IMG/VR virus record: IMGVR_UViG_3300017963_000011
Span: 1 to 64,000 of that record
Reading direction: 5' to 3' (one strand)
Length of the DNA: 64,000 nt
Origin: a virus
Of this stretch, positions 14,448 through 26,131 are shown piece by piece; positions within the stretch are counted from its first letter, which is position 1; each line of letters opens with the position of its first letter. The translations under genes and the position numbers were made by a program. The notes beneath the pieces were generated by a model, which saw only the letters and a list, made by a program, of their open reading frames with translations, did not search any database and was not told where the DNA came from.

Positions 14448-14784
14448 TGGGCATCAGGAAGAAGCGAAAGCCTGCATTGGCCAGGCGTTTGAGTGCTGAG
14501 ATCTCATCTTCATCCAAGCCGGCATCTCGTAAGGAGGAAAGAAGCCTTTCATCTTTGATCTTTTCATCGAGCTTACCTAGCCAGTGACTTCCGAAATCCC
14601 AGGGTTCTGTTCCGAACGCTGCGAATAGATCTTCGCTTGTACCACGCGTGGGGCACACATGGACTAGCGTTGCGATCTTGGTATTTTCCTTTACGCACTC
14701 ATAGTAGTTCTCTGGATAGTCGAGACAGTCTACGATCTTCTTTTGAAACTTACCGATTGCGAAAAGTTCAGCGTTCATGCCCAT
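14440..14784 (-). CDS. Hypothetical protein downstream of ThyX (114 aa)
   Basis: Starts MGMNAELFAIGKF at 14784, overlapping the ThyX stop (CTGATGG); the ATG at 14778 is an alternative. Alpha/beta N-terminal half with LDYPENYYECV and a C-terminal helical part (RDAGLDEDEISALKRLANAGF). No recognised family. Co-expression with thyX is likely. Confidence 0.65.
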   Translation of the reverse strand: MGMNAELFAIGKFQKKIVDCLDYPENYYECVKENTKIATLVHVCPTRGTSEDLFAAFGTEPWDFGSHWLGKLDEKIKDERLLSSLRDAGLDEDEISALKRLANAGFRFFLMPNG

Positions 14785-15470
14785 CAGAGATACTCTTCTT
14801 TCAGGTCATCGAATACAGGAGCGAACCGCTCTGCAAAATCCCTGAGAAGGCCGAGCATCAGCGAAACCATGTCCGGGTGCGCAGCCTTGTTGCAGCGCAG
14901 AGAGAAGATGTGGCGCCACTCACGGAGGTTGGCTTTGCAAATCACCTCAGTCTTGAGGCTGTTTGGGAGCACGTCGCGGGCGCCTTGCGGTGGAAGACCA
15001 CGCTGGCGTAGCATGTGATAGAACTCTTCGGCCGTGATCATCGCATTCCACCACTCGTGTTCAATGTCATCCCAGGACATCCTGTCGCTGCTATCGTTAT
15101 GGATGCCGATGGGGATGTTGGGGCAGAAGAACGGGATCACGAACCTGACGTGATCTTTCTCTTCACCTGTCCCGTAGTCACAGTAGCGGCTCGACTCTTG
15201 GAGGAAAGAGCAGAGCCGATGGCGCACGAGTTCATGAGAGATGCCTCGATCGCAGATGAAGCGAACTGTGACATCCCAGAACTCGAATACGGTCCAGTGC
15301 CCACGCTTGATGAGCTTCTTGATGAGTTGAATGTCGGTGCCTGGGGCTATCTTGGCCTCGCTCTTGTAGCAGTTACGAGCGCACAGTTCCAGGAACCCCG
15401 ACCAGTCCATGACGATACCACCAGGGGCGGAACCGTTCATGATCTTGGCGCTTTGCTTAACTAGGATCAT
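14784..15470 (-). CDS. thyX: Flavin-dependent thymidylate synthase ThyX
   Basis: 228-residue FAD-dependent thymidylate synthase making dTMP from dUMP with methylenetetrahydrofolate. The family signature RHRxxSxxxxSxR is complete at residues 83-95 (RHRLCSFLQESSR), with a preceding HWTVFEFWDVTV strand and a C-terminal LREWRHIFSLR(C) segment that binds dUMP. Length matches the family. In phages ThyX supplies thymidine nucleotides for genome replication. It lies mid-operon, overlapping both neighbours. Confidence 0.95.
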   Translation of the reverse strand: MILVKQSAKIMNGSAPGGIVMDWSGFLELCARNCYKSEAKIAPGTDIQLIKKLIKRGHWTVFEFWDVTVRFICDRGISHELVRHRLCSFLQESSRYCDYGTGEEKDHVRFVIPFFCPNIPIGIHNDSSDRMSWDDIEHEWWNAMITAEEFYHMLRQRGLPPQGARDVLPNSLKTEVICKANLREWRHIFSLRCNKAAHPDMVSLMLGLLRDFAERFAPVFDDLKEEYL

Positions 15471-15709
15471 ACTCCGTTCCTCTCAGTGTCAGTGACACCA
15501 TTGAGATGGACGGCCCAGCGGCAGATAGGCTTGTTCTTGCGGTCGTTGAAGAGTAACAGGGCGCCGATGCACTCGACGTGTGCTACGTCTTTCACGGGCA
15601 GTGCCCAAATGTCGCCATCTAAGCTGCATACCTCAAGATCATCATCGTACCTGGGGTCGTTGATGATCTTCCTGAATTCTTTTAACTTCATGCGGGCTGG
15701 GCTTTCCAC
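15467..15709 (-). CDS. Hypothetical protein (80 aa)
   Basis: Either a GTG at 15709, overlapping the upstream TAG and using the conserved GGTGA of the RLVKI tail, or the ATG at 15691 may be the start; I favour the GTG by analogy with the other RLVKI junctions. Short alpha/beta protein (FRKIINDPRYDDDLEVCSLDGDIW) with strands around it; not recognised. Confidence 0.6.
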   Translation of the reverse strand: MESPARMKLKEFRKIINDPRYDDDLEVCSLDGDIWALPVKDVAHVECIGALLLFNDRKNKPICRWAVHLNGVTDTERNGV

Positions 15710-16455
15710 TAGATCTTCACCAGTCTCCGTAGTTTCTTTCCAGATGGCTTCGACATCATGCTCTTGGCCAAATCGATGACTTGACGCATTGTGCCAAGCT
15801 CTTGTTGCGCGTGTCTCAGATCGTCCATCGTGATTGTGAATTCACATTTGACATGACTCCAATCTTTCTCGGTATCTATTTTCTTGATCCTCTTGTCGAA
15901 TTGTGACCATTGACTACGTTCCTCGGGCGGCTTCTTCAATTCCAGATACATGAAGAGAAGCATAGCAGCGAGGATTTCATCTCTGATCTCGTGGTAGCCT
16001 TCCTCATCATCCATGCCAGTGCTGTCATAGAATGAGATGGCATTTCCGTTTGGATCTACAATGGTATCGCCGCCGGCCCAACCTTGCATTCCGCCTTGTA
16101 GGCTGACGAGGACGTTTCCATTCTCGTCGGCTTCACTGATAGCTGTGCCGATGATACCTGGATTTGTTGATTCTCCGTTGAGATTTCCACCAGCGCCAGC
16201 GGTTACGAGATCGCCGGCTCGGATTGGGGCACCGCTTGTTGAGACGGCATTTCCGATTTCTACGACTCCATGCCGAGTTACATCAACAGCAGTTCCTTCA
16301 GCATGACGTGATCTGGGCGGTTCGACAGCAAAGACTTCGTTGGGCAGAGAGCATTGCCGGGCAATCATCTTTGCCATTTGTTCTGCCCATGCTGGTGTAA
16401 TTTCCCCGTTTATTTGAATCTGATTGAAGATGATGTTGTCGTTTTTCTTTGCCAT
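15709..16455 (-). CDS. Accessory protein with decoration-like beta domain, RLVKI tail
   Basis: 248 residues. Residues ~65-125 (GNAVSTSGAPIRAGDLVTAG...PGIIGTAISEADENGNVLVSL) follow the pattern of capsid-decoration (DUF2190-like) beta domains: a G-[IV] strand, I+AGD/GD turn, P.G.A and a closing V.V+L strand, as in the late protein at 24780-25181. An N-terminal helix (AWAEQMAKMIARQCS) and a C-terminal helical region (RHAQQELGTMRQVIDLAKSMM) flank it. It ends in RRLVKI. It is the second early-block protein with a virion-like domain; function unknown. Confidence 0.65.
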   Translation of the reverse strand: MAKKNDNIIFNQIQINGEITPAWAEQMAKMIARQCSLPNEVFAVEPPRSRHAEGTAVDVTRHGVVEIGNAVSTSGAPIRAGDLVTAGAGGNLNGESTNPGIIGTAISEADENGNVLVSLQGGMQGWAGGDTIVDPNGNAISFYDSTGMDDEEGYHEIRDEILAAMLLFMYLELKKPPEERSQWSQFDKRIKKIDTEKDWSHVKCEFTITMDDLRHAQQELGTMRQVIDLAKSMMSKPSGKKLRRLVKI

Positions 16456-17906: not shown

Positions 17907-19346
17907 ATGGCACTCGTAAGGTTTGACATACCAGTCTCAAAGTTCACGCCAAAACGCAAGTATAAGTTCTTCTACAAGAAGCTCAAGTACAATCCACATG
18001 GCGGGCAGAAGAAGTTTCACGACTCTGACGCCCGCTTTCGCGTTATCACGGCGGGGTCAAGAACTGGAAAGACGACCGGCGCTGCGGCCGAGGTCATCGC
18101 CTACGCTTGGTTGCCCAACAAGGTGATCTGGTGTGTTGCGCCTACGTATGATCTTTCAGAGAAAGTCTTCCGCATCGTGTGGCGCAAGATGGTGGAAGAG
18201 TGGGGCTGCGAAACACTATCCGGCACATCCTACAGGGATCGCCGGATTCGTTTTGCATGGGGAACCGAAGTTTGTGGTCGATCTTGCGAGAATCCAAAGT
18301 CGCTTCTTGGCGAGGGCGTTGACTTCATGGTTGTTGACGAAGCAGCCCGCATCTCCAAGATGATCTGGGATGAGTATCTCCGCGAGCGCTTGATGGACAA
18401 GATTGGCAAAGCAATCATCATCTCGTCGCCAAAGGGAACAGCCGGGTGGTTCCCGGAGTTCTACAAGCGTGGTCAAAATTCGGCATTCGAGCAGTGGGCA
18501 AGTTGGCGCATCACTCTGTACGAGAACCCCCACATTCCGCGCGAAGAAATTGAGATGATGGCGCTGGAGATGCCCAAGGAAGTCTTCGATCAAGAAGTCC
18601 TTGGAAAGTTTGTCCCGTATGGTGGCCTTGTCTTCAAGGGCTTCGATGAGGGCGTGCATCTAAGCGCAGACGCTGAGTTCAATCCTGAGATCCCAATCAC
18701 GCTTGCTGTCGATTTTGGAAAACGCAACCCGACATCTGTTCTATTCTGTCATCGCATGGGTGCAGAGTCTTTTCACATTTTTGATGAATACTACGTCGCT
18801 GGTCTCGATACGATCGATAACGCGTTTGCTGTCCAGAGAAAACTTGAACCGTATCTTGCCGCGAGCATCCATAAGAGTGTCCATACTTATCACGATCCTT
18901 CGGGCAGTGATGAGGCATCGATTTTCAAGAAGATCATCAAACCCCTGGTTATGATACCTGGGATCAACGACATCAAGCCTGGGAATATCACGCTGGAAAC
19001 ACACCTGAAAGAGAAGAAGCACACAGGGCGCCCAGGCATCCTCGTGAACCCGCGTTGTGAGAACACAGCATGGGAATTCACGGTCTATCACTACCCAAAG
19101 AAAAAGAAACGCGACGACGCACCAGTCTCTGAGAACCCGGTGGATGTAGACAACCATTCGATGGCCGCGTTGCGTTACTGGATACATACGATCGCCCCGG
19201 CGAGTTACATGCCGCTAGACTTCAACACTATTCGCGCTTCACGGAGTCTTTCTATCTGTGCGCGGGAGGCAGGAAATGATTACATTCGCGAGATCTCTAA
19301 TCTCAAGGGTATTGTCGCTGTTGAAACTCAGACGCCCGAAGATTGA
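17907..19346 (+). CDS. terL: Terminase large subunit
   Basis: 479-residue packaging motor. ATPase: Walker A GSRTGKT at residues 50-56, adenine-binding region before it (GGQKKFHDSDARFRVI), Walker B MVVDEAAR at 141-148, and coupling SSPKGT near 173. Nuclease: TLAVDFGKRNPTSV (Asp269) and a C-terminal DVDNHSMAALRYW with catalytic acidic/His residues. No small subunit was recognised. The ATG lies directly at the predicted transcription start of the late promoter. It overlaps the portal gene. Confidence 0.95.
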   Translation: MALVRFDIPVSKFTPKRKYKFFYKKLKYNPHGGQKKFHDSDARFRVITAGSRTGKTTGAAAEVIAYAWLPNKVIWCVAPTYDLSEKVFRIVWRKMVEEWGCETLSGTSYRDRRIRFAWGTEVCGRSCENPKSLLGEGVDFMVVDEAARISKMIWDEYLRERLMDKIGKAIIISSPKGTAGWFPEFYKRGQNSAFEQWASWRITLYENPHIPREEIEMMALEMPKEVFDQEVLGKFVPYGGLVFKGFDEGVHLSADAEFNPEIPITLAVDFGKRNPTSVLFCHRMGAESFHIFDEYYVAGLDTIDNAFAVQRKLEPYLAASIHKSVHTYHDPSGSDEASIFKKIIKPLVMIPGINDIKPGNITLETHLKEKKHTGRPGILVNPRCENTAWEFTVYHYPKKKKRDDAPVSENPVDVDNHSMAALRYWIHTIAPASYMPLDFNTIRASRSLSICAREAGNDYIREISNLKGIVAVETQTPED

Positions 19347-20730
19347 CAAGAAGAAGACACAACTCAACAGAGAGACAGCGGCTACCGTAATCAACGGTTA
19401 CTCTACCGGGGTCTCTCTGATCACGAACCCGGATACCTTGGTCCAGCGTCGTGGCCTCGATATCTACGACGAGATGCTCACCGACGATCAAGTCTACGCC
19501 ATCTCGTCAACCAAGAAGCTGCTCATCCTTGCGCCAAGTTGGAATGTGTTGCCTGCCAGCGCATCCAAGCGCGACATCGCCATCGCAGACTTCGTGAGTT
19601 GGAATCTTGTGAACATGCAAGGCACGTTTCGCAACATCTTGTTCAACGTGCTCACAGCGATGGACTATGGCTTCTCAATCACAGAGAAGGTGTGGACTCT
19701 GATCAAGAACAATCGCAAGTACCGGGGCCTCATCGGTATCAAGGCGTTGAAGCCGAAGAGTCCTCACTATTTCGATTTCAAGATTGACTGCTTTGGCAAC
19801 ATCAAGGGCCTTCGACAAACGGTACGCTGCATAGAGCAGCCACGTGGCGAACTCGATCCCGACAAGTTCATCATTTATTCGTACAACGCGAAATTCGGAA
19901 ATCCCTACGGTTATTCCGATTTACGCGCGGCTTATTTGCCTTGGATCGAGAAGAAGCTGGTGCGTAGGTTCTGGAACATCTTCCTCGAACGTTTCGGGTC
20001 GCCACCTGTCATTGGGCGCGTTCCTCGCGGCGCGTCCGATGACGAAGTGCAGAAGATGCTCAACATCATCGAGAACATCCAGACTCGCACAGGTATCACG
20101 CTTCCCGAGGGTTTCGAGATGGAACTTCTGGAAGCGCAGCGAGGTGGTCAGGCCAAGTTCGAGGCTGCTATTGCAGAGAAGAACATGGCCATCTCGCACG
20201 CGATTTTGATGCCCGATCTTCTCGGTTTCTCGTCTGGCGAGCGTCCAGGCTCGTTTGCTCTTGGCAAAGCCCACGTCGATATCTTCCTTCTCATTCTTGA
20301 AAAAGTCGCCAAGGATATCGAGGACGACATCGTTGGCGAACAGATCATCCGGCCGCTGGTCGACATGAACTTCAAGGTCCAGGACTACCCCAGGTTCAAA
20401 TTCGAGCCGATGAAGCGAGAGAACCGTTCGATCCGCGCCAAGATTGTTTCCATCCTCAACGATGCCGGCGTTATCCGCGCCGACGAGCCATGGGTTCGCG
20501 ACTTTGTGGAGATCCCACAAGTCACTGGCGTCATTCCGGAGACAGAGCAAGAGACAGACGATCCGCTTCTCGATAGAATCGAGAAGATCGAGGAAGTGCT
20601 TGCAGGTGAAAGGCCCAAGCAGTTGGGCAAGCCAACACAGAGAAAGATCGGCAAGAGAATTGACCGCGCTCCTGGCGTTGGGGCGAAACCCGGTCGTGGA
20701 CCCGTGGAAGTTCAGAGCCCTAAGCTCTAG
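19276..20730 (+). CDS. Portal protein, DUF935 (Mu gp29-like)
   Basis: 484 residues from the ATG at 19276 (GGGAGGCAGGAA upstream), overlapping terminase. The order is that of the DUF935 portals: N-terminal GYSTGVSLITNPDTLVQRRG, YDEMLTDDQVYAISSTKKLLILAPSWNV, a FGNPYGYSDLRAAYLPW region, RFGSPPVIGRVP, then IAEKNMAISHAILMPDLLGFSSGERPGSFALG with a C-terminal extension. It forms the ring at the head vertex through which DNA passes. The C-terminal ~70 residues are basic and variable. Confidence 0.85.
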   Translation: MITFARSLISRVLSLLKLRRPKIDKKKTQLNRETAATVINGYSTGVSLITNPDTLVQRRGLDIYDEMLTDDQVYAISSTKKLLILAPSWNVLPASASKRDIAIADFVSWNLVNMQGTFRNILFNVLTAMDYGFSITEKVWTLIKNNRKYRGLIGIKALKPKSPHYFDFKIDCFGNIKGLRQTVRCIEQPRGELDPDKFIIYSYNAKFGNPYGYSDLRAAYLPWIEKKLVRRFWNIFLERFGSPPVIGRVPRGASDDEVQKMLNIIENIQTRTGITLPEGFEMELLEAQRGGQAKFEAAIAEKNMAISHAILMPDLLGFSSGERPGSFALGKAHVDIFLLILEKVAKDIEDDIVGEQIIRPLVDMNFKVQDYPRFKFEPMKRENRSIRAKIVSILNDAGVIRADEPWVRDFVEIPQVTGVIPETEQETDDPLLDRIEKIEEVLAGERPKQLGKPTQRKIGKRIDRAPGVGAKPGRGPVEVQSPKL

Positions 20731-20741
20731 GAGGTTACAGC

Positions 20742-22691
20742 ATGGCTATCGAAATCCCGAGTGATCTTGGCAAGATCAGTGACGAAGAACTCATAGCCCT
20801 GGACGAAAGCATCCTGGGGCTGCTCTTGCAAGGGCAACTGGACGAGGAGAGTTTCAAGAACCTTCAGGCTGCAATCGCGGAGGAGATGAAACAGAGAGGT
20901 ATCAAGCCGGAAGTCAAGACAGAGCCGACGCAGTTCGCGCAACGCAAGATGCGTGAGATCGGCAACCGGCTTCGCAATTCAATCCTGACACTCAAGGGCG
21001 GCGTTGCCAAGGTGCGCAGCGATGTGGCCGGTGAACGCTGTACGTTCTTCTTCGATGAGGAAGGTGTGACCGACGCGTTCAAAGGCTGCGCCCTCAAGAT
21101 CAACGAGATCCTTCCTGACAAGTCGGAGCATCTCCAGTTCAGCACAAAGCCGGCGTGCTCGTTCGACATGCCGATCTACGATCTTTGCCTCGTTCCGCAT
21201 GGCCGTGAGGTGGATTTCAAACTGGAGTACGTGACAGGGCGCGCCGAGGACGTCGCCTACTTCCACCAGCTTCGCCAGAGTTCACAGCAGCTATGCGGCG
21301 CAGCGCGTTCCTCGACCAAGCGTGATGAGGTGGCGGCCGGCCGCTTCTTCCGATGCTTGCCCTTCACCCGCTGCGTGCAGACAGAGGCCCACCAGTCCGT
21401 TGAGGATGTCTCTCGATCCTTTGACTCTCAGACAGAAGCAGTCACGGCAGTGGCCAGGTGCAGTGACGTGGATGTGCAGATCCACAAGAAGGGTGACAAG
21501 ATCAAGGTCTGGACGAACGAGGGAGTAGAGTGCAGCCTTGCTTTCAAGGAAGCGATCGAAGCTCTCAAGGAACACGGGCCGGCGGAAGACTATGTTCTTC
21601 TCGCCAACGTCAAAGTGATGCCCGATGGTAGCGCTACGCCGATGCCATCGAGCTTCATTCGTAGGTTCCTGAAGAACCCGAGGCCGCACAAAGTATGCCA
21701 TGAACTCCGTGTGTTCGACTGCCTCTTCTTCAAACACGATCTGCACAATCTCCACTGGAAGGGTCGCATCAAGTATTTCAACGACGAGAACTGGCCGGCC
21801 CTCATCTTCTCATCGGCCATGTCCTCCGAGAGTAAGCCGGGCCATGTCACGTCATCCATCCGGCACTATCGAAAGCATCCTGACGTGGCAGAAGTGATGG
21901 TCTACTCCAACGATCCGTACAATCTCTCGCCGGCCATTGGAGATGCTATCCCGCTGTATGAGAAAACAGTCAAGTTCAATGGCATCGTTCTTGACTGCAA
22001 GAAGACCATGATCCCTGGCGTGAGCAATCTGACCATCGGCATCGATCCGGGCTCGCTGGCATTCTCGGCGGCTACGATCGTCAAGCAGGACGGAAAAAAA
22101 TACGCTGTCCTGGGAGACACAATTTCGACGTCGAGGTGGGCTTACCCTGGCGAAATCATGGAGATTTCGGCCAGAGAAGTCATGCACGAATTCGACGTAC
22201 TCCGCAACAGGAACGAAATCCATGCGACCGGGATGCGTGTCGTCAACAAGGTCAACGATGTCGGCTTTCCGAATCTGGCCAAGCACCTCATCGAAGAGGC
22301 AGTTGACAATGGAGTCTATTTCAGCTACATTGTTGTGCCCGGCTCTGGAATACAATATAATAAGGATAGAGTTTCTGAGATGAGTGCCTTGAAGATCTTC
22401 AAGTGGGAGCAGACCGAGAACGAGGTTCGTTACCGAGTGCGTCCTCCGGGGATCTTCGAGAAGGACAGCTTCAGGACGATCACCTTGAAGAAGTCCAAGC
22501 CAACGGTGCGGGCGATCATCGCTCGCCCCAAAGGCAAGACCGGCACCAAGGTGCAAGCCCTGCGATTTCCGAAATCGGAAGGATGGACATTGGCTAAGGC
22601 GCAAGAATGGGCAAAGTCCCGCGACTTCCAAATCCATCCTTCCAGGGAAGATGTCGAGAACCCTGACGGTAGCAAAGAGAACAACGCATAG
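20742..22691 (+). CDS. Inactive DNA-ligase-like structural/assembly protein
   Basis: 649 residues. Residues ~200-480 align with the adenylation and OB domains of ATP-dependent DNA ligases: QIHKKGDKIKVW(TNEG), AIEALKEHG, RVFDCLFFKHDL, DPYNL, IVLDCKK, VLGDTISTS..AYPGEIMEI. Catalytic motifs are gone: the KxDG site reads CSDV (240-243), the DGE site LAN (288-290), EGxxxK is EVMVYS (384-389). The C-terminal ~90 residues (SALKIFKWEQTENEVRYRV...ALRFPKSEGWT) resemble a domain often found in prophage head proteins. Thus it is probably a structural or scaffolding pseudo-ligase between portal and protease. It contains palindrome 21626. Confidence 0.65.
   Translation: MAIEIPSDLGKISDEELIALDESILGLLLQGQLDEESFKNLQAAIAEEMKQRGIKPEVKTEPTQFAQRKMREIGNRLRNSILTLKGGVAKVRSDVAGERCTFFFDEEGVTDAFKGCALKINEILPDKSEHLQFSTKPACSFDMPIYDLCLVPHGREVDFKLEYVTGRAEDVAYFHQLRQSSQQLCGAARSSTKRDEVAAGRFFRCLPFTRCVQTEAHQSVEDVSRSFDSQTEAVTAVARCSDVDVQIHKKGDKIKVWTNEGVECSLAFKEAIEALKEHGPAEDYVLLANVKVMPDGSATPMPSSFIRRFLKNPRPHKVCHELRVFDCLFFKHDLHNLHWKGRIKYFNDENWPALIFSSAMSSESKPGHVTSSIRHYRKHPDVAEVMVYSNDPYNLSPAIGDAIPLYEKTVKFNGIVLDCKKTMIPGVSNLTIGIDPGSLAFSAATIVKQDGKKYAVLGDTISTSRWAYPGEIMEISAREVMHEFDVLRNRNEIHATGMRVVNKVNDVGFPNLAKHLIEEAVDNGVYFSYIVVPGSGIQYNKDRVSEMSALKIFKWEQTENEVRYRVRPPGIFEKDSFRTITLKKSKPTVRAIIARPKGKTGTKVQALRFPKSEGWTLAKAQEWAKSRDFQIHPSREDVENPDGSKENNA
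21626..21639. repeat. Palindrome copy 8, coding
   Basis: TGGTAGCGCTACGC within the pseudo-ligase gene; read as Gly-Ser-Ala-Thr (residues 296-299). Confidence 0.85.
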
Positions 22692-22709: not shown

Positions 22710-22782
22710 CGAAATCGCAGGGGACCAACCCCCCGAACTACCCGACCAGATGGTTGTTAATGCGTGGGCTGAAGGGAAAGGA

Positions 22783-24702
22783 ATGAACGGGGAAACCAAC
22801 GAAGTTCACGATCACGCCCATACCTGGGAAGTCGTGAAGTTCAACGACGAGTTCATCGGTAAGACCAACGAGATCGATGGACACTTCCACGACGTTTCGA
22901 TCCCGTCCGGTATGAATTTCGCCGAGGGCCTCCACCACAGAACGAGCATCAACGAAGGTCATTCGCATGAGATTCTCATCGAGGATGCGCAGGCTTTCGC
23001 TGTTGGCACGCGCCGTGGCCCGAGGGACGGGTCCGGTCCCGATGGCGGCACTGACAAGTGCCCGCTTGAAGAAGAGGACAAGGACAAGTTCCAGGACGAC
23101 GAAATCTACGGCCCCGATGGAAGCGATGAGGAGGAGGACGAGAAGAAGCGCCTGAAGCAGAAGGTCGACGAGGATGGTCTCGTCGAGGAGCGCCGCTCCA
23201 AGTTCCAGGGCAAGTACACCGATGCCAAGTGGGACTTCCGAATGTCCGAATACAGCCTTGAGCAGCTTCGCCGGGCTGTCCCTGCTTCGTTGCGTGCCTG
23301 GGCCGATGGCCGAGGTAAGAAGAAGTCCGACTACAAGCTCCCCTATCGGGAACCGAACGGGACCATCAACGTCAATGGCGTGCGGAATGCCCTGGCCCGC
23401 GCCTCGCAGGTCAAGGGTGTGCCGCAAGAGACAATCAGCCGCGCTGTCTCGGAACTTCAGAAAGTTCTGGCCGGCGCCAAGAAGGCTGGCTTTGCGTGCG
23501 GAGAGGAGGACAAGAAGAAGTTCTCCCAGGATCTGACGGTCATCGCCGACAGGCTTCGGGAGAAGTACGCCGACGATCCGAACGTGGTCGTTCTGGATAA
23601 CAAGGTGCTGGTCAAAAACCAGCATCTTTTCCAAGTGGGCACCTGGAACGGTGTCCCGGTGGACCAGAACATGATCAACGAGATGGTGGCCAACTACAAG
23701 GCATTGGAGGGTTCCTTCCTGCCTTCGATCACGGCTGGCCACGACCGAGAGATCCATCACGCGCTGGAAGGCGAACTCTCGCTGGGCTGGGTCCATGCGC
23801 CCCGCGCAGCGTTTCCCTATATGGACGGCGACCTGGAATTCCCGATCGACTTCTTCGACAAGTACGTCGATCCGGGCAAGCTCAGGTTCAAGTCCATCGA
23901 AGTCATGGAAGATTTCCACCGCAACGGGAAGAACTATGGAACCGTGCTCACATCGCTGGCGCTGTTGGGAGTCAATCCCCCGGCGCTCAACGATCTCGGC
24001 CCCGTGGTGCGACCGTTCGCGGATCAGGAAAAAGATGCCATTCGTATCGTATTCGACAATGGAGGTGAAGAAGGAATGCCCGCCGAGGACATCAAGAAGT
24101 TCGAGGACGAGATCGCGAAGCTGAAGGCCGAGAACGCCAAGCTCAAGAAGTTCGAGGCCGACAACGCGACTCTCAAGAAGGAGAAGGAAGAGGCCGAACA
24201 GCAGGCCACGCACTTCTCCGCGCAACTCCGAGCCAAGGACGCCCAGATGGCGGCCGACAAGCTCAAGGTCGAGGGCAAGCTGCTCCCCGCCGACGAAGAC
24301 GGCTTCAAGTTCTTCTACCTGACCCTGGACGGCGAGACCAAGCTCACATTCTCGCAGAAGGACGGGTCGGAGATGAAGAAGTCCCAGATCGAGATGTTCA
24401 TGGACATCATGAACTCGGCCAAGCCCAAGGTCGATCTCGACGGTGAGTCCAAGGACGAGGGCGACAAGATGCCCGATACCCCGGACCCCGACGCGAGCCA
24501 GGACGACGACAAGCCCGCCGACGAAGCGCCCAAGAGCCTGCCCGGTCACAAGAAGTTCACCGAGAAGGCCAAGCGGAGCGGCTACAAGTTCTCCGGGGTC
24601 GCCGAGCACGAGGCGGCCGTCAAGCTCCAGAACGAGAGCGGCGGCAAGCTGACCTACAGCGATGCCCTCGCCCAGGTCTACGCCAGCAAGTCCGAAGAGT
24701 AG
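22783..24702 (+). CDS. Capsid maturation protease with scaffold domain (gpI-like)
   Basis: 639 residues from the ATG at 22783, which has GAAGGGAAAGGA upstream (an ATG at 22750 lacks one). Parts: a His-rich N-terminus with HDHAH, DGHFHD and GHSHE repeats, an acidic linker, a helical module (NGVRNALARASQVKG) seen in other prophage head proteins, a protease region with FLPSITAGHDRE and LGWVHAP similar to Mu gpI, then, from residue ~443, a coiled coil and acidic scaffold tail. The protease should cut scaffold and other head proteins during maturation. Expression of the tail alone is possible (24076). Confidence 0.75.
   Translation: MNGETNEVHDHAHTWEVVKFNDEFIGKTNEIDGHFHDVSIPSGMNFAEGLHHRTSINEGHSHEILIEDAQAFAVGTRRGPRDGSGPDGGTDKCPLEEEDKDKFQDDEIYGPDGSDEEEDEKKRLKQKVDEDGLVEERRSKFQGKYTDAKWDFRMSEYSLEQLRRAVPASLRAWADGRGKKKSDYKLPYREPNGTINVNGVRNALARASQVKGVPQETISRAVSELQKVLAGAKKAGFACGEEDKKKFSQDLTVIADRLREKYADDPNVVVLDNKVLVKNQHLFQVGTWNGVPVDQNMINEMVANYKALEGSFLPSITAGHDREIHHALEGELSLGWVHAPRAAFPYMDGDLEFPIDFFDKYVDPGKLRFKSIEVMEDFHRNGKNYGTVLTSLALLGVNPPALNDLGPVVRPFADQEKDAIRIVFDNGGEEGMPAEDIKKFEDEIAKLKAENAKLKKFEADNATLKKEKEEAEQQATHFSAQLRAKDAQMAADKLKVEGKLLPADEDGFKFFYLTLDGETKLTFSQKDGSEMKKSQIEMFMDIMNSAKPKVDLDGESKDEGDKMPDTPDPDASQDDDKPADEAPKSLPGHKKFTEKAKRSGYKFSGVAEHEAAVKLQNESGGKLTYSDALAQVYASKSEE
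24061..24075 (+). promoter_or_regulatory. Internal ribosome-binding site for a nested scaffold start
   Basis: GGAGGTGAAGAAGGA directly precedes the in-frame ATG at 24076 inside the protease gene, giving a strong Shine-Dalgarno match that is not needed for the full-length protein. Confidence 0.65.
24076..24702 (+). CDS. Nested head scaffolding protein
   Basis: In-frame internal start giving a 208-residue protein, MPAEDIKKFEDEIAKL..., identical to the C-terminus of the protease. It contains a heptad coiled coil (residues ~3-60), an acidic proline-rich stretch and a helical C-terminus (residues ~165-205). This is the lambda C/Nu3 arrangement, in which a scaffold is made in excess from an internal start. 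Evidence is the strong internal ribosome-binding site; expression is not shown by sequence. Confidence 0.6.
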   Translation: MPAEDIKKFEDEIAKLKAENAKLKKFEADNATLKKEKEEAEQQATHFSAQLRAKDAQMAADKLKVEGKLLPADEDGFKFFYLTLDGETKLTFSQKDGSEMKKSQIEMFMDIMNSAKPKVDLDGESKDEGDKMPDTPDPDASQDDDKPADEAPKSLPGHKKFTEKAKRSGYKFSGVAEHEAAVKLQNESGGKLTYSDALAQVYASKSEE

Positions 24703-24779: not shown

Positions 24780-25181
24780 ATGAGCACTCCCGGACCCCGC
24801 GTGGAGCAGACGGCGCCCTACATCAACAACGCAAGCGCCACCGTTCCTCGGTACACGACCGTCATCCAGGACACGTCGGACGAAGGGCTTTTCAAGCTCC
24901 CGACCGCTGCCAACGAGCGCCCGCTCGGCGTGACGGAATACGAGACCGAAGAAGGCGAGAACGGCTCCATCGTTCGCGAGGGATACTGGTGGGCAATCGC
25001 AGCCGCTGCGATCAGCATCGGCGATACCGTCGTCATCAACGGAACCGCCGGCAAGGTCAAGACGGACCCCGCGACCAGCACCACGGTCTCTCATCAACTC
25101 GGCGTGGCCGAGACCGCAGCCGGCGCCGATGGCGATCACATCATCGTGCGCCTGCGCATCCAGTCGGTGTACAACCCGTAA
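24780..25181 (+). CDS. Capsid decoration-like protein (DUF2190-like)
   Basis: 133 residues. A beta-rich protein with RPLGVTEYETEEGENGSIVREGYWWAIA..., SIGDTVVINGTAGKV and QLGVAETAAGADGDHIIVRLRI, the pattern of DUF2190-type or lambda-gpD-like decoration proteins. It is directly upstream of the major capsid gene, as usual. Codons end mostly in C/G, a bias shared with capsid and tail tube, which suggests high expression. Confidence 0.75.
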   Translation: MSTPGPRVEQTAPYINNASATVPRYTTVIQDTSDEGLFKLPTAANERPLGVTEYETEEGENGSIVREGYWWAIAAAAISIGDTVVINGTAGKVKTDPATSTTVSHQLGVAETAAGADGDHIIVRLRIQSVYNP

Positions 25182-25207: not shown

Positions 25208-26131
25208 ATGCCGGCACTGAGCCCGAGACAAGTCCACGTCAACGTGCCGTTGACGAACTTCTCCGTCCAGTACGACCACCTGGAGTACCTGACCTACAGG
25301 ATCGCTCCTGCGGTGGACGTCAAGAAGGAGCAAGACATCTACTACGTGTTCAACGAGAATCGCGAGTCGATCACTCCGGTGAACACAGAACGAGCCGTGG
25401 GTACGCCCGCTGCCGAGGTCCAGCTTTCCGGGGATACCGATACGTACCAGTGCAAAGAATACGCACTGGCGTACAAGCTCCCCGATCGCGTGCGTGAGAA
25501 CGCCGACGATCCCTGGCGCCTCGAACAGCGTGGCATCGGCCGAACCATCGACCTTCTGGACCTCGACAAGGAGCGCAGAATCCAAGCGATGTTCCAGACG
25601 TTCGGTGGCGCAGGCCAGCCCCCCGGCGCCAACGTCGCGACCAAGTGGGACGACACAGGTGGCGATCCCGAAGGCGACATCCGTGCCGCCAAGAAGATCG
25701 TTCGACAGGCGATCGGCCGCGTGCCCAACTCGATGCTGATCTCCGCAGACGTGGGCAACGCTCTCATCGGCGTCATCAAGAGCGCCCTCACGTCCCTGGA
25801 CCTCAAGACCAAGTTGACGTTCAACGACCTTCCCGACATGCTCTGGGGGCTGAAGCTGTACATCGGCAACGCCATCCAGAACACGGCGAACGCTGGCCAG
25901 ACAGCCACGATCGCCGACGTCTGGAACGACAACGTGGTGATCTTCTACATGGACCCGAATCCAGGTCTGGACGGCATGAACTTCGTGAGCACCTTCCGCT
26001 CGCAGAAGGAAATGGTCATCCAGTGGCGCGAAGACCGCATTCGCTCCGACATGTACGAGGTCAACCGCGTCGAAGTCGAGAAGATGGTCGCCCCGACCGC
26101 AGCCTACGTGCTGGGGGACACCCTGCTGTAG
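25208..26131 (+). CDS. Major capsid protein (HK97 fold)
   Basis: 307 residues, preceded by GAAGAGGTGAAAG. The sequence fits HK97-fold capsids: an N-terminal arm, a E-loop-like region (YYVFNENRESITP), GDTDTYQCKEYALAYKLPDR, a long spine helix (DLLDLDKERRIQAMFQT), IRAAKKIVRQAIGRVPNSMLIS, and a C-terminal strand region with TFRSQKEMVIQWREDRIRSDMYEVN. Strong C/G-ending codons indicate abundant expression. A stable hairpin follows the stop. Confidence 0.85.
   Translation: MPALSPRQVHVNVPLTNFSVQYDHLEYLTYRIAPAVDVKKEQDIYYVFNENRESITPVNTERAVGTPAAEVQLSGDTDTYQCKEYALAYKLPDRVRENADDPWRLEQRGIGRTIDLLDLDKERRIQAMFQTFGGAGQPPGANVATKWDDTGGDPEGDIRAAKKIVRQAIGRVPNSMLISADVGNALIGVIKSALTSLDLKTKLTFNDLPDMLWGLKLYIGNAIQNTANAGQTATIADVWNDNVVIFYMDPNPGLDGMNFVSTFRSQKEMVIQWREDRIRSDMYEVNRVEVEKMVAPTAAYVLGDTLL

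Follow-up and report, generated by a model that had tools for sequence, protein, structure and literature searches.

A head-locus viral protein with a DNA ligase fold and replaced catalytic residues between the portal and protease genes

Results

Gene arrangement at the head locus

The window analysed here, a stretch of 64,000 nucleotides, is part of a virus record of 105,134 bases. It carries a cluster of head genes in the order terminase large subunit, portal, pseudo-ligase, protease, cement-type protein and major head protein. The open reading frame of the head-locus pseudo-ligase (20742..22691, + strand) starts with ATG and has 649 codons for a protein of 649 aa, and a ribosome-binding-site-like AGGAGG (20729..20734, +), recognised from the sequence, lies 7 nt 5' of this ATG. 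The upstream neighbour is the portal gene (19258..20730, +; Portal_Mu 1.1e-68, phrog_113 1e-87), and the downstream neighbour is a separate gene for a head maturation protease (22750..24702, +; phrog_976 7.7e-14). These matches agree with the initial annotation, which had placed the gene at a head-gene locus between portal and protease. The wider context comprises the terminase large subunit gene (17907..19346, +; Pfam and PHROGs matches), the gene for the cement-type protein (24780..25181; Pfam/PHROGs scan) and the major head protein gene (25208..26131, +; PHROGs match), so that the 649-aa protein is encoded beside both portal and head protease/capsid genes.

Elsewhere, the record encodes a family B DNA polymerase, a DnaB-type helicase, a Toprim protein, a sigma factor and Thy1. 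Searches of the 105-kb record for ATP-dependent (PF01068) and NAD-dependent (PF01653) ligase domains revealed no other ligase and gave the pseudo-ligase alone, below the cut-off. A second cement-like protein (15709-16455, - strand; Phage_cement_2 2.6e-4) is encoded on the opposite strand, outside the head cluster, and adjoins Thy1 (14784-15470). In the right part of the record (84001-104000, L005), LGAEN, SAPRL and other peptides are repeated across many frames, which indicates a short repeated intergenic DNA element.

Homology to ATP-dependent DNA ligases

The likeness to ligase adenylation and OB domains, first noticed by inspection of the sequence, is stronger than was then claimed. General profiles match the protein weakly (Pfam PF01068, E=0.082, or 7.5e-4 within its own record; NCBIfam dnl1, 8.8e-4). 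A profile of viral relatives, made from 21 sequences (20 IMG/VR loci and ANMV-1, with five partial, duplicate or unrelated loci excluded), matches aa 176-484, spanning both domains, with 86.8 bits and with E 2.7e-25 when six-frame ORFs are searched. The OB profile by itself identifies the protein as the sole significant ORF in the record (E=6e-5). The 649-aa protein has a homologous adenylation domain of the ATP-dependent DNA ligase superfamily at aa 176-420 (21267..22001, +), seen in the family profile, the alignment and the model superposition. This is followed by a C-terminal OB domain of the same superfamily at aa 421-524 (22002..22313, +), in which the family-conserved residues G458, T460, T463 and G470 are retained.

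The first real relatives to emerge were five archaeal ligase loci on cellular contigs (E values, calculated against candidate stretches, of 1e-7 to 9e-5) and the virus ANMV-1. Against phages, tblastn of the 649-aa protein gave nothing at E<=1e-5 and, when relaxed, ANMV-1 only, at E=3; the plasmid search gave nothing at E<=1. No relatives were found in viral contigs searched with the 649-aa protein, the portal and the terminase, with the ANMV-1 ligase or with two alignments. An alignment of ANMV-1 and two archaeal ligases, one of whose two patterns contains K[FY]DG, led to 25 viral loci. Another alignment, made from the OB and phosphoesterase-like parts and with patterns outside the adenylation domain, led to 19, of which seven belong to contigs that had already been identified. 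These searches for relatives revealed no further sequence of the dead form, and none of the eight phage regions compared for head genes has a ligase annotated between portal and head protein. In a midpoint-rooted tree the 649-aa protein falls inside the viral head-locus family (fork 97/97), though its long branch makes this position unsure. Its end branch is the longest in the tree (3.16, with a median of 0.66), as expected for changed constraint.

Predicted structure

The AlphaFold2 model of the whole protein, based on a 20-row alignment, has a mean pLDDT of 65.5. Ten-residue blocks mostly average 70-93 in the ligase core and the OB domain, with dips to 43-68 near aa 211-230, 311-320, 351-370, 391-400 and 421-430, and stay under 50 across aa 58-175; the OB strands of the model lie at aa 410-503. 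The best PDB matches in Foldseek are DNA ligases (3l2p_A, 3.5e-13). VIA-align gives a Z of about 20 against DNA-bound human ligase 1 (3.0-3.1 Å over 305-308 residues), 20.3 for the superposition of the model on 7kr3_A (3.1 Å, 308 residues) and 21.2, at 12.2 Å, against an archaeal ligase. Structure prediction, which the initial annotation had proposed as a check, is thus ligase-like. The model does depend on the sequence evidence, however, because its input alignment consists of ligase relatives and favours a ligase fold.

Replacement of the catalytic residues

Catalytic motifs are almost always the yardstick for DNA ligases. In the 649-aa protein, motif I (KxDG) is replaced by RCSD at aa 239-242 (21456..21467, +) in the family alignments. 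The position of the nucleophilic lysine falls on C240 by HMMER, which matches the CSDV read at first, and on R239 by ungapped MAFFT (RCSD against KYDG); there is no lysine either way. Motif III, (D/x)GE, is LAN at aa 287-289 (21600..21608, +), exactly as originally reported, with N289 at the place of the glutamate. Motif IV, SEGxxxK, is VAEVMVY at aa 382-388 (21885..21905, +), with A383 and E384 for Glu-Gly and Y388 for the lysine. The lysine of motif V is Leu405 (21954..21956, +) in the family alignment. Altogether, seven of the eight catalytic positions are replaced, which supports a catalytically dead protein of ligase fold, and the one retained is the motif I aspartate in the HMMER family alignment.

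The relatives retain these residues. Out of 49 alignment rows, five are partial and do not cover motif I; lysine occupies the nucleophile position in all 43 other rows that cover it, five of which are duplicates, one search pattern having been selected for KxDG. Because of that pattern, intact motif I among the 25 loci is partly by construction. The loci found through the OB and phosphoesterase-like parts also have the lysine in 16 of the 16 that cover motif I, and three of these 19 loci (L052, L053 and L055) have no ligase row. All eight catalytic positions are retained in the five archaeal ligases and in 26 of 28 viral relatives, a count that leaves out duplicates (L034, L045, L046, L050, L057), partial or other ligases (L023, L039, L041, L044, L054) and ANMV-1 (L002). 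The initial annotation had named intact relatives as a point against it. Many do exist; rather than refuting the deadness, they mark the 649-aa protein as a dead representative of a head-locus family that is otherwise intact. The two remaining relatives lack one catalytic residue each, L047 in motif IV (SEGNVASFHNT) and L058 in motif I (KYNG), so that the family may include further cases of partial decay or of different chemistry.

At 20 other family-conserved positions, the 649-aa protein keeps 10 residues, the archaeal ligases 5-9 and the viral relatives 14-20 (from individual leave-one-out sets of 20-23 positions). With one of eight catalytic positions and 10 of 20 others kept (Fisher test for this protein alone, p=0.10, not significant), the protein is family-like outside the active site and unlike all ligases inside it.

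Could the protein still be a nucleotidyl transferase or ligase that uses other residues? The fold is kept, as is a motif IIIa-like VFDCLF, but with no lysine at or beside the nucleophile position, and with the glutamates of motifs III and IV and the motif V lysine gone, we consider this very improbable. Slightly more improbable still is an intact ligase made to look dead by a sequencing or assembly error. Only one metagenomic virus record is available for the dead form, but the replacements affect four separate motifs spread across about 500 nt, the homology runs on in frame to either side, and KxDG is found in no other frame. A frameshift hiding KxDG around motif I was rejected on this last ground.

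Flanking regions of the ligase core

The N-terminal helical hairpin (aa 1-58; 20742..20915, +) is modelled with pLDDT mostly 78-94 and is common to the relatives, whose profile matches the N-terminal helices at aa 34-69 with 8.3 bits. Between the hairpin and the ligase core lies a degenerate nucleotidyltransferase-like region (aa 60-175; 20919..21266, +), recognised by an order-preserving alignment and by window ranking. It follows the relatives' nucleotidyltransferase in order, through a GG strand, RCT/ERC, CALKINEIL (LKLGRIL in the relatives) and MPIYDLCLVP (IPVFDLVLRP). In a local-score scan, this stretch ranks first among 354 windows in the record. None of 500 shuffles reached the score of the alignment, but a control stretch was also positive (1/300), which makes the shuffle test too lenient and the window ranking the better evidence. 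The nucleotidyltransferase core profile is not significant against the 649-aa protein (4.9 bits, below the best shuffle at 10.2), and a model of aa 1-189 leaves the nucleotidyltransferase-like region at low confidence. The catalytic DxD of the relatives aligns to RCT or ERC (aa 98-101), depending on the alignment used. These alignments are suggestive of a second dead active site, the nucleotidyltransferase DxD having likely been lost as well.

The C-terminal domain (aa 526-649; 22317..22688, +) is basic, with a net charge of +9, and occupies the place of the relatives' phosphoesterase-like and XkdF parts. It had been taken for a prophage-head domain, a claim that found no confirmation: no Pfam or PHROG family matches aa 526-649, there is no relative among 9821 ORFs of the compared loci, and matches to phages are weak (E 0.6-8). 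A LigD-like phosphoesterase part after the OB domain is absent, the best ORF in the record reaching E=43 with the family's own profile, which has 35 matches at E<=1e-3 outside this record. Likewise, the record has no match to a fused XkdF (S78_2) protease (best E=3.6), and the protease of the next gene belongs to another family, phrog_976. The ligase and OB domains together have a net charge of +1, which gives no hint of a basic surface for DNA binding. Since active relatives span net charges from -15 to +18, charge is uninformative on DNA binding.

A family of large ligase proteins at viral head loci

The initial annotation had included neither the family of relatives, nor the degenerate region at aa ~60-175, nor the fact that the phosphoesterase-like domain has been lost. 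The relatives reach about 1,800 aa, several of them on cut contigs. Their usual order is helical repeats, a nucleotidyltransferase with DxD, an ATP ligase, an OB domain and a LigD 3'-phosphoesterase-like part (LigD_PE of NCBIfam matches L021 at 3.2e-4), often with an XkdF protease (Peptidase_S78_2, in L025, L028 and L030). Ten genes were scanned on either side. Upstream are seven portals, one minor head protein (MuF-like), one endonuclease and one gene with no match; downstream, eight match PHROGs of the 'head and packaging' category (major head, head maturation protease, virion structural), one a family of unknown function, and one has no match. With such neighbours, the placement of a ligase next to the portal recurs among viruses, and the 649-aa protein is a reduced, dead version of this arrangement. 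No head-locus DNA ligase family or dead phage ligase was found in the PMC literature, searched by title and abstract start and mostly without subscription journals, and the relatives apparently form an undescribed family of large head-locus proteins.

Some members have further domains. In L030 and L043, a metallo-beta-lactamase-fold domain (Lactamase_B_2, 5.4e-9 and 1.5e-3) lies between nucleotidyltransferase and ligase, and Dam-like methyltransferase stretches are visible by eye in L037, L040 and L029. Directly upstream of family ligases in L026 (3306-4493) and L028 (138-1306), there are ORFs that resemble QueE and FolE by eye, and the ligases behind them have an N-terminus resembling a tRNA-guanine-transglycosylase-type domain. 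A deazaguanine DNA-modification set is possible at these two head loci, judging from such resemblances.

Probable maintenance of the reading frame

The codon signal of the pseudo-ligase gene is within the range of the other structural genes of the record and is normal along most of the gene, although it weakens in three windows, which begin at aa 181, 301 and 361. When neutral drift was simulated until seven of the eight residues had changed (mean 0.86 substitutions per site), stop codons arose in 300 of 300 runs, at least seven in each; at 0.10 substitutions per site, one run of 300 was stop-free. Selection has thus probably acted on the frame during most of the period after the loss of catalysis, and we infer that the 649-aa protein is maintained. 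A decaying pseudogene, with a frame that merely happens to be open still, would fit the long branch, the loss of seven catalytic residues and the three windows of weaker codon signal. This explanation is improbable in view of the 649 open codons, the good ribosome-binding site, the conservation at fold level and the rarity of stop-free runs even at 0.10 substitutions per site, though missense drift under weak constraint is still compatible with the data.

Discussion

We suggest, with a probability of roughly 0.63, that the 649-aa protein is a pseudoenzyme derived from a viral head-locus enzyme family, and that it has a non-catalytic role in the head or on DNA and is made beside portal and protease. 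The catalytic parts are replaced here and intact in the relatives of other viruses, which probably means that a former enzyme now serves as a non-enzymatic part. The data establish the homology, the replacement of the catalytic residues, the locus and the open frame. A location in the virion, DNA binding, and a role in assembly or packaging are what we infer; a position in the head cluster is itself no proof of presence in the virion.

The ancestor would have combined a nucleotidyltransferase, an ATP-dependent DNA ligase and an OB domain; in the relatives, these precede a LigD-type phosphoesterase-like part and, in many cases, an XkdF protease. Head-locus enzymes of this type probably enter the head together with the genome. 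The active relatives, with nucleotidyltransferase, phosphoesterase and ligase, resemble a DNA-end repair kit that would be made with the head, and this kit may be freed by protease cleavage and possibly injected, as the available text of PMC5512222 proposes for polyvalent proteins. In the lineage studied here, the ligase active site would have been lost and the nucleotidyltransferase site probably too. Selection presumably preserved the N-terminal helices together with the core fold of the ligase and the OB domain. With the repair parts dead or missing, this virus would be left with a ligase-OB clamp, preceded by a helical domain and followed by a basic C-terminal one. Such a protein would work without chemistry, be produced at the time of head assembly and be located at the portal or within the procapsid. 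There, the adenylation and OB domains may together still act as a clamp on double-stranded DNA.

The main rival is a non-catalytic effector or regulator that is co-injected like polyvalent proteins and is not structural, such as a decoy for nicks, for DNA ends or for a partner from the host. The relatives are multidomain enzymes at a portal-protease locus, as the part of PMC5512222 at hand describes for packaged polyvalent proteins, and some of them carry an XkdF protease. The 649-aa protein, though, seems to have lost the enzymatic, effector-like parts, and it matches no PADLOC family. We regard such an effector as unlikely, if less so than decay of the gene; the reading with the best support is that the protein takes part in head assembly or DNA handling without catalysis.

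A broader version of the conversion is more tentative and, in our estimate, falls somewhat short of even odds. The head-locus nucleotidyltransferase-ligase-phosphoesterase proteins would then be undescribed, virion-carried machines for DNA-end repair, one of which has here been converted wholly, through loss of active sites and repair domains, to a non-catalytic DNA clamp or head assembly part. If true, an enzyme would have become a structural protein within a single locus, while relatives still have the active, ancestral type.

An open-framed ligase fold without nearly all catalytic motifs in a head cluster would be a viral pseudo-ligase, and as such a natural experiment on what a ligase clamp does when the chemistry is removed. 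Comparison of the intact relatives with the dead form separates a catalytic from an architectural role. In addition, the active relatives make it testable whether a ligase-based DNA-end repair kit lies inside the heads of bacterial or archaeal viruses and is injected with the genome.

Comparison with known systems

Archaeal replicative-type DNA ligases (L012-L016; PDB 3gde, 2cfm) share the adenylation and OB folds of the 649-aa protein, but they are encoded on cellular contigs and have intact motifs at all eight catalytic positions. The polyvalent proteins of Iyer et al. 2017 (PMC5512222) are similar to the head-locus family in being multidomain, located at portal/MuF loci and predicted to be packaged. 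In the available portion of that paper, the ligase mentioned is an ATP-grasp RNA ligase only, with no DNA-ligase or dead-ligase head protein. The accessible part of PMC7824862 mentions XkdF peptidases and jumbo-phage DNA ligases, and notes that a stand-alone ligase DNA-binding domain could recruit host ligase.

The 'ATP-dependent DNA ligase' of the ANMV-1 virus (AJP62006.1; KP703175, L002:3200-5800) lies directly downstream of a portal gene, as here, and has the same nucleotidyltransferase-ligase-OB order (two-sequence BLASTP with the 649-aa protein, E 3e-6). Unlike the 649-aa protein, it has 866 aa, intact motifs (KKFDG, GELEF, SEGAYLK, KYK) and, by eye, a phosphoesterase-like part after the OB domain; the ANMV-1 paper (PMC4372165) does not mention the ligase in the portion of its main text available to us. 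The neighbouring AJP62005.1 (L002:1913-3193), annotated as a 'MutT-like phage hydrolase', matches Pfam Phage_portal_3 at 3.2e-22 and is probably a misannotated portal. The closest relative by phmmer is L025 (IMGVR_UViG_3300035158_000282, L025:6566-10648; E 1.5e-13 over aa 176-481 of the 649-aa protein). Its locus resembles the one described here, with a portal upstream and a major head protein downstream, whereas the L025 protein itself differs in its length of 1360 aa, its full set of eight catalytic positions and its C-terminal XkdF protease (Peptidase_S78_2).
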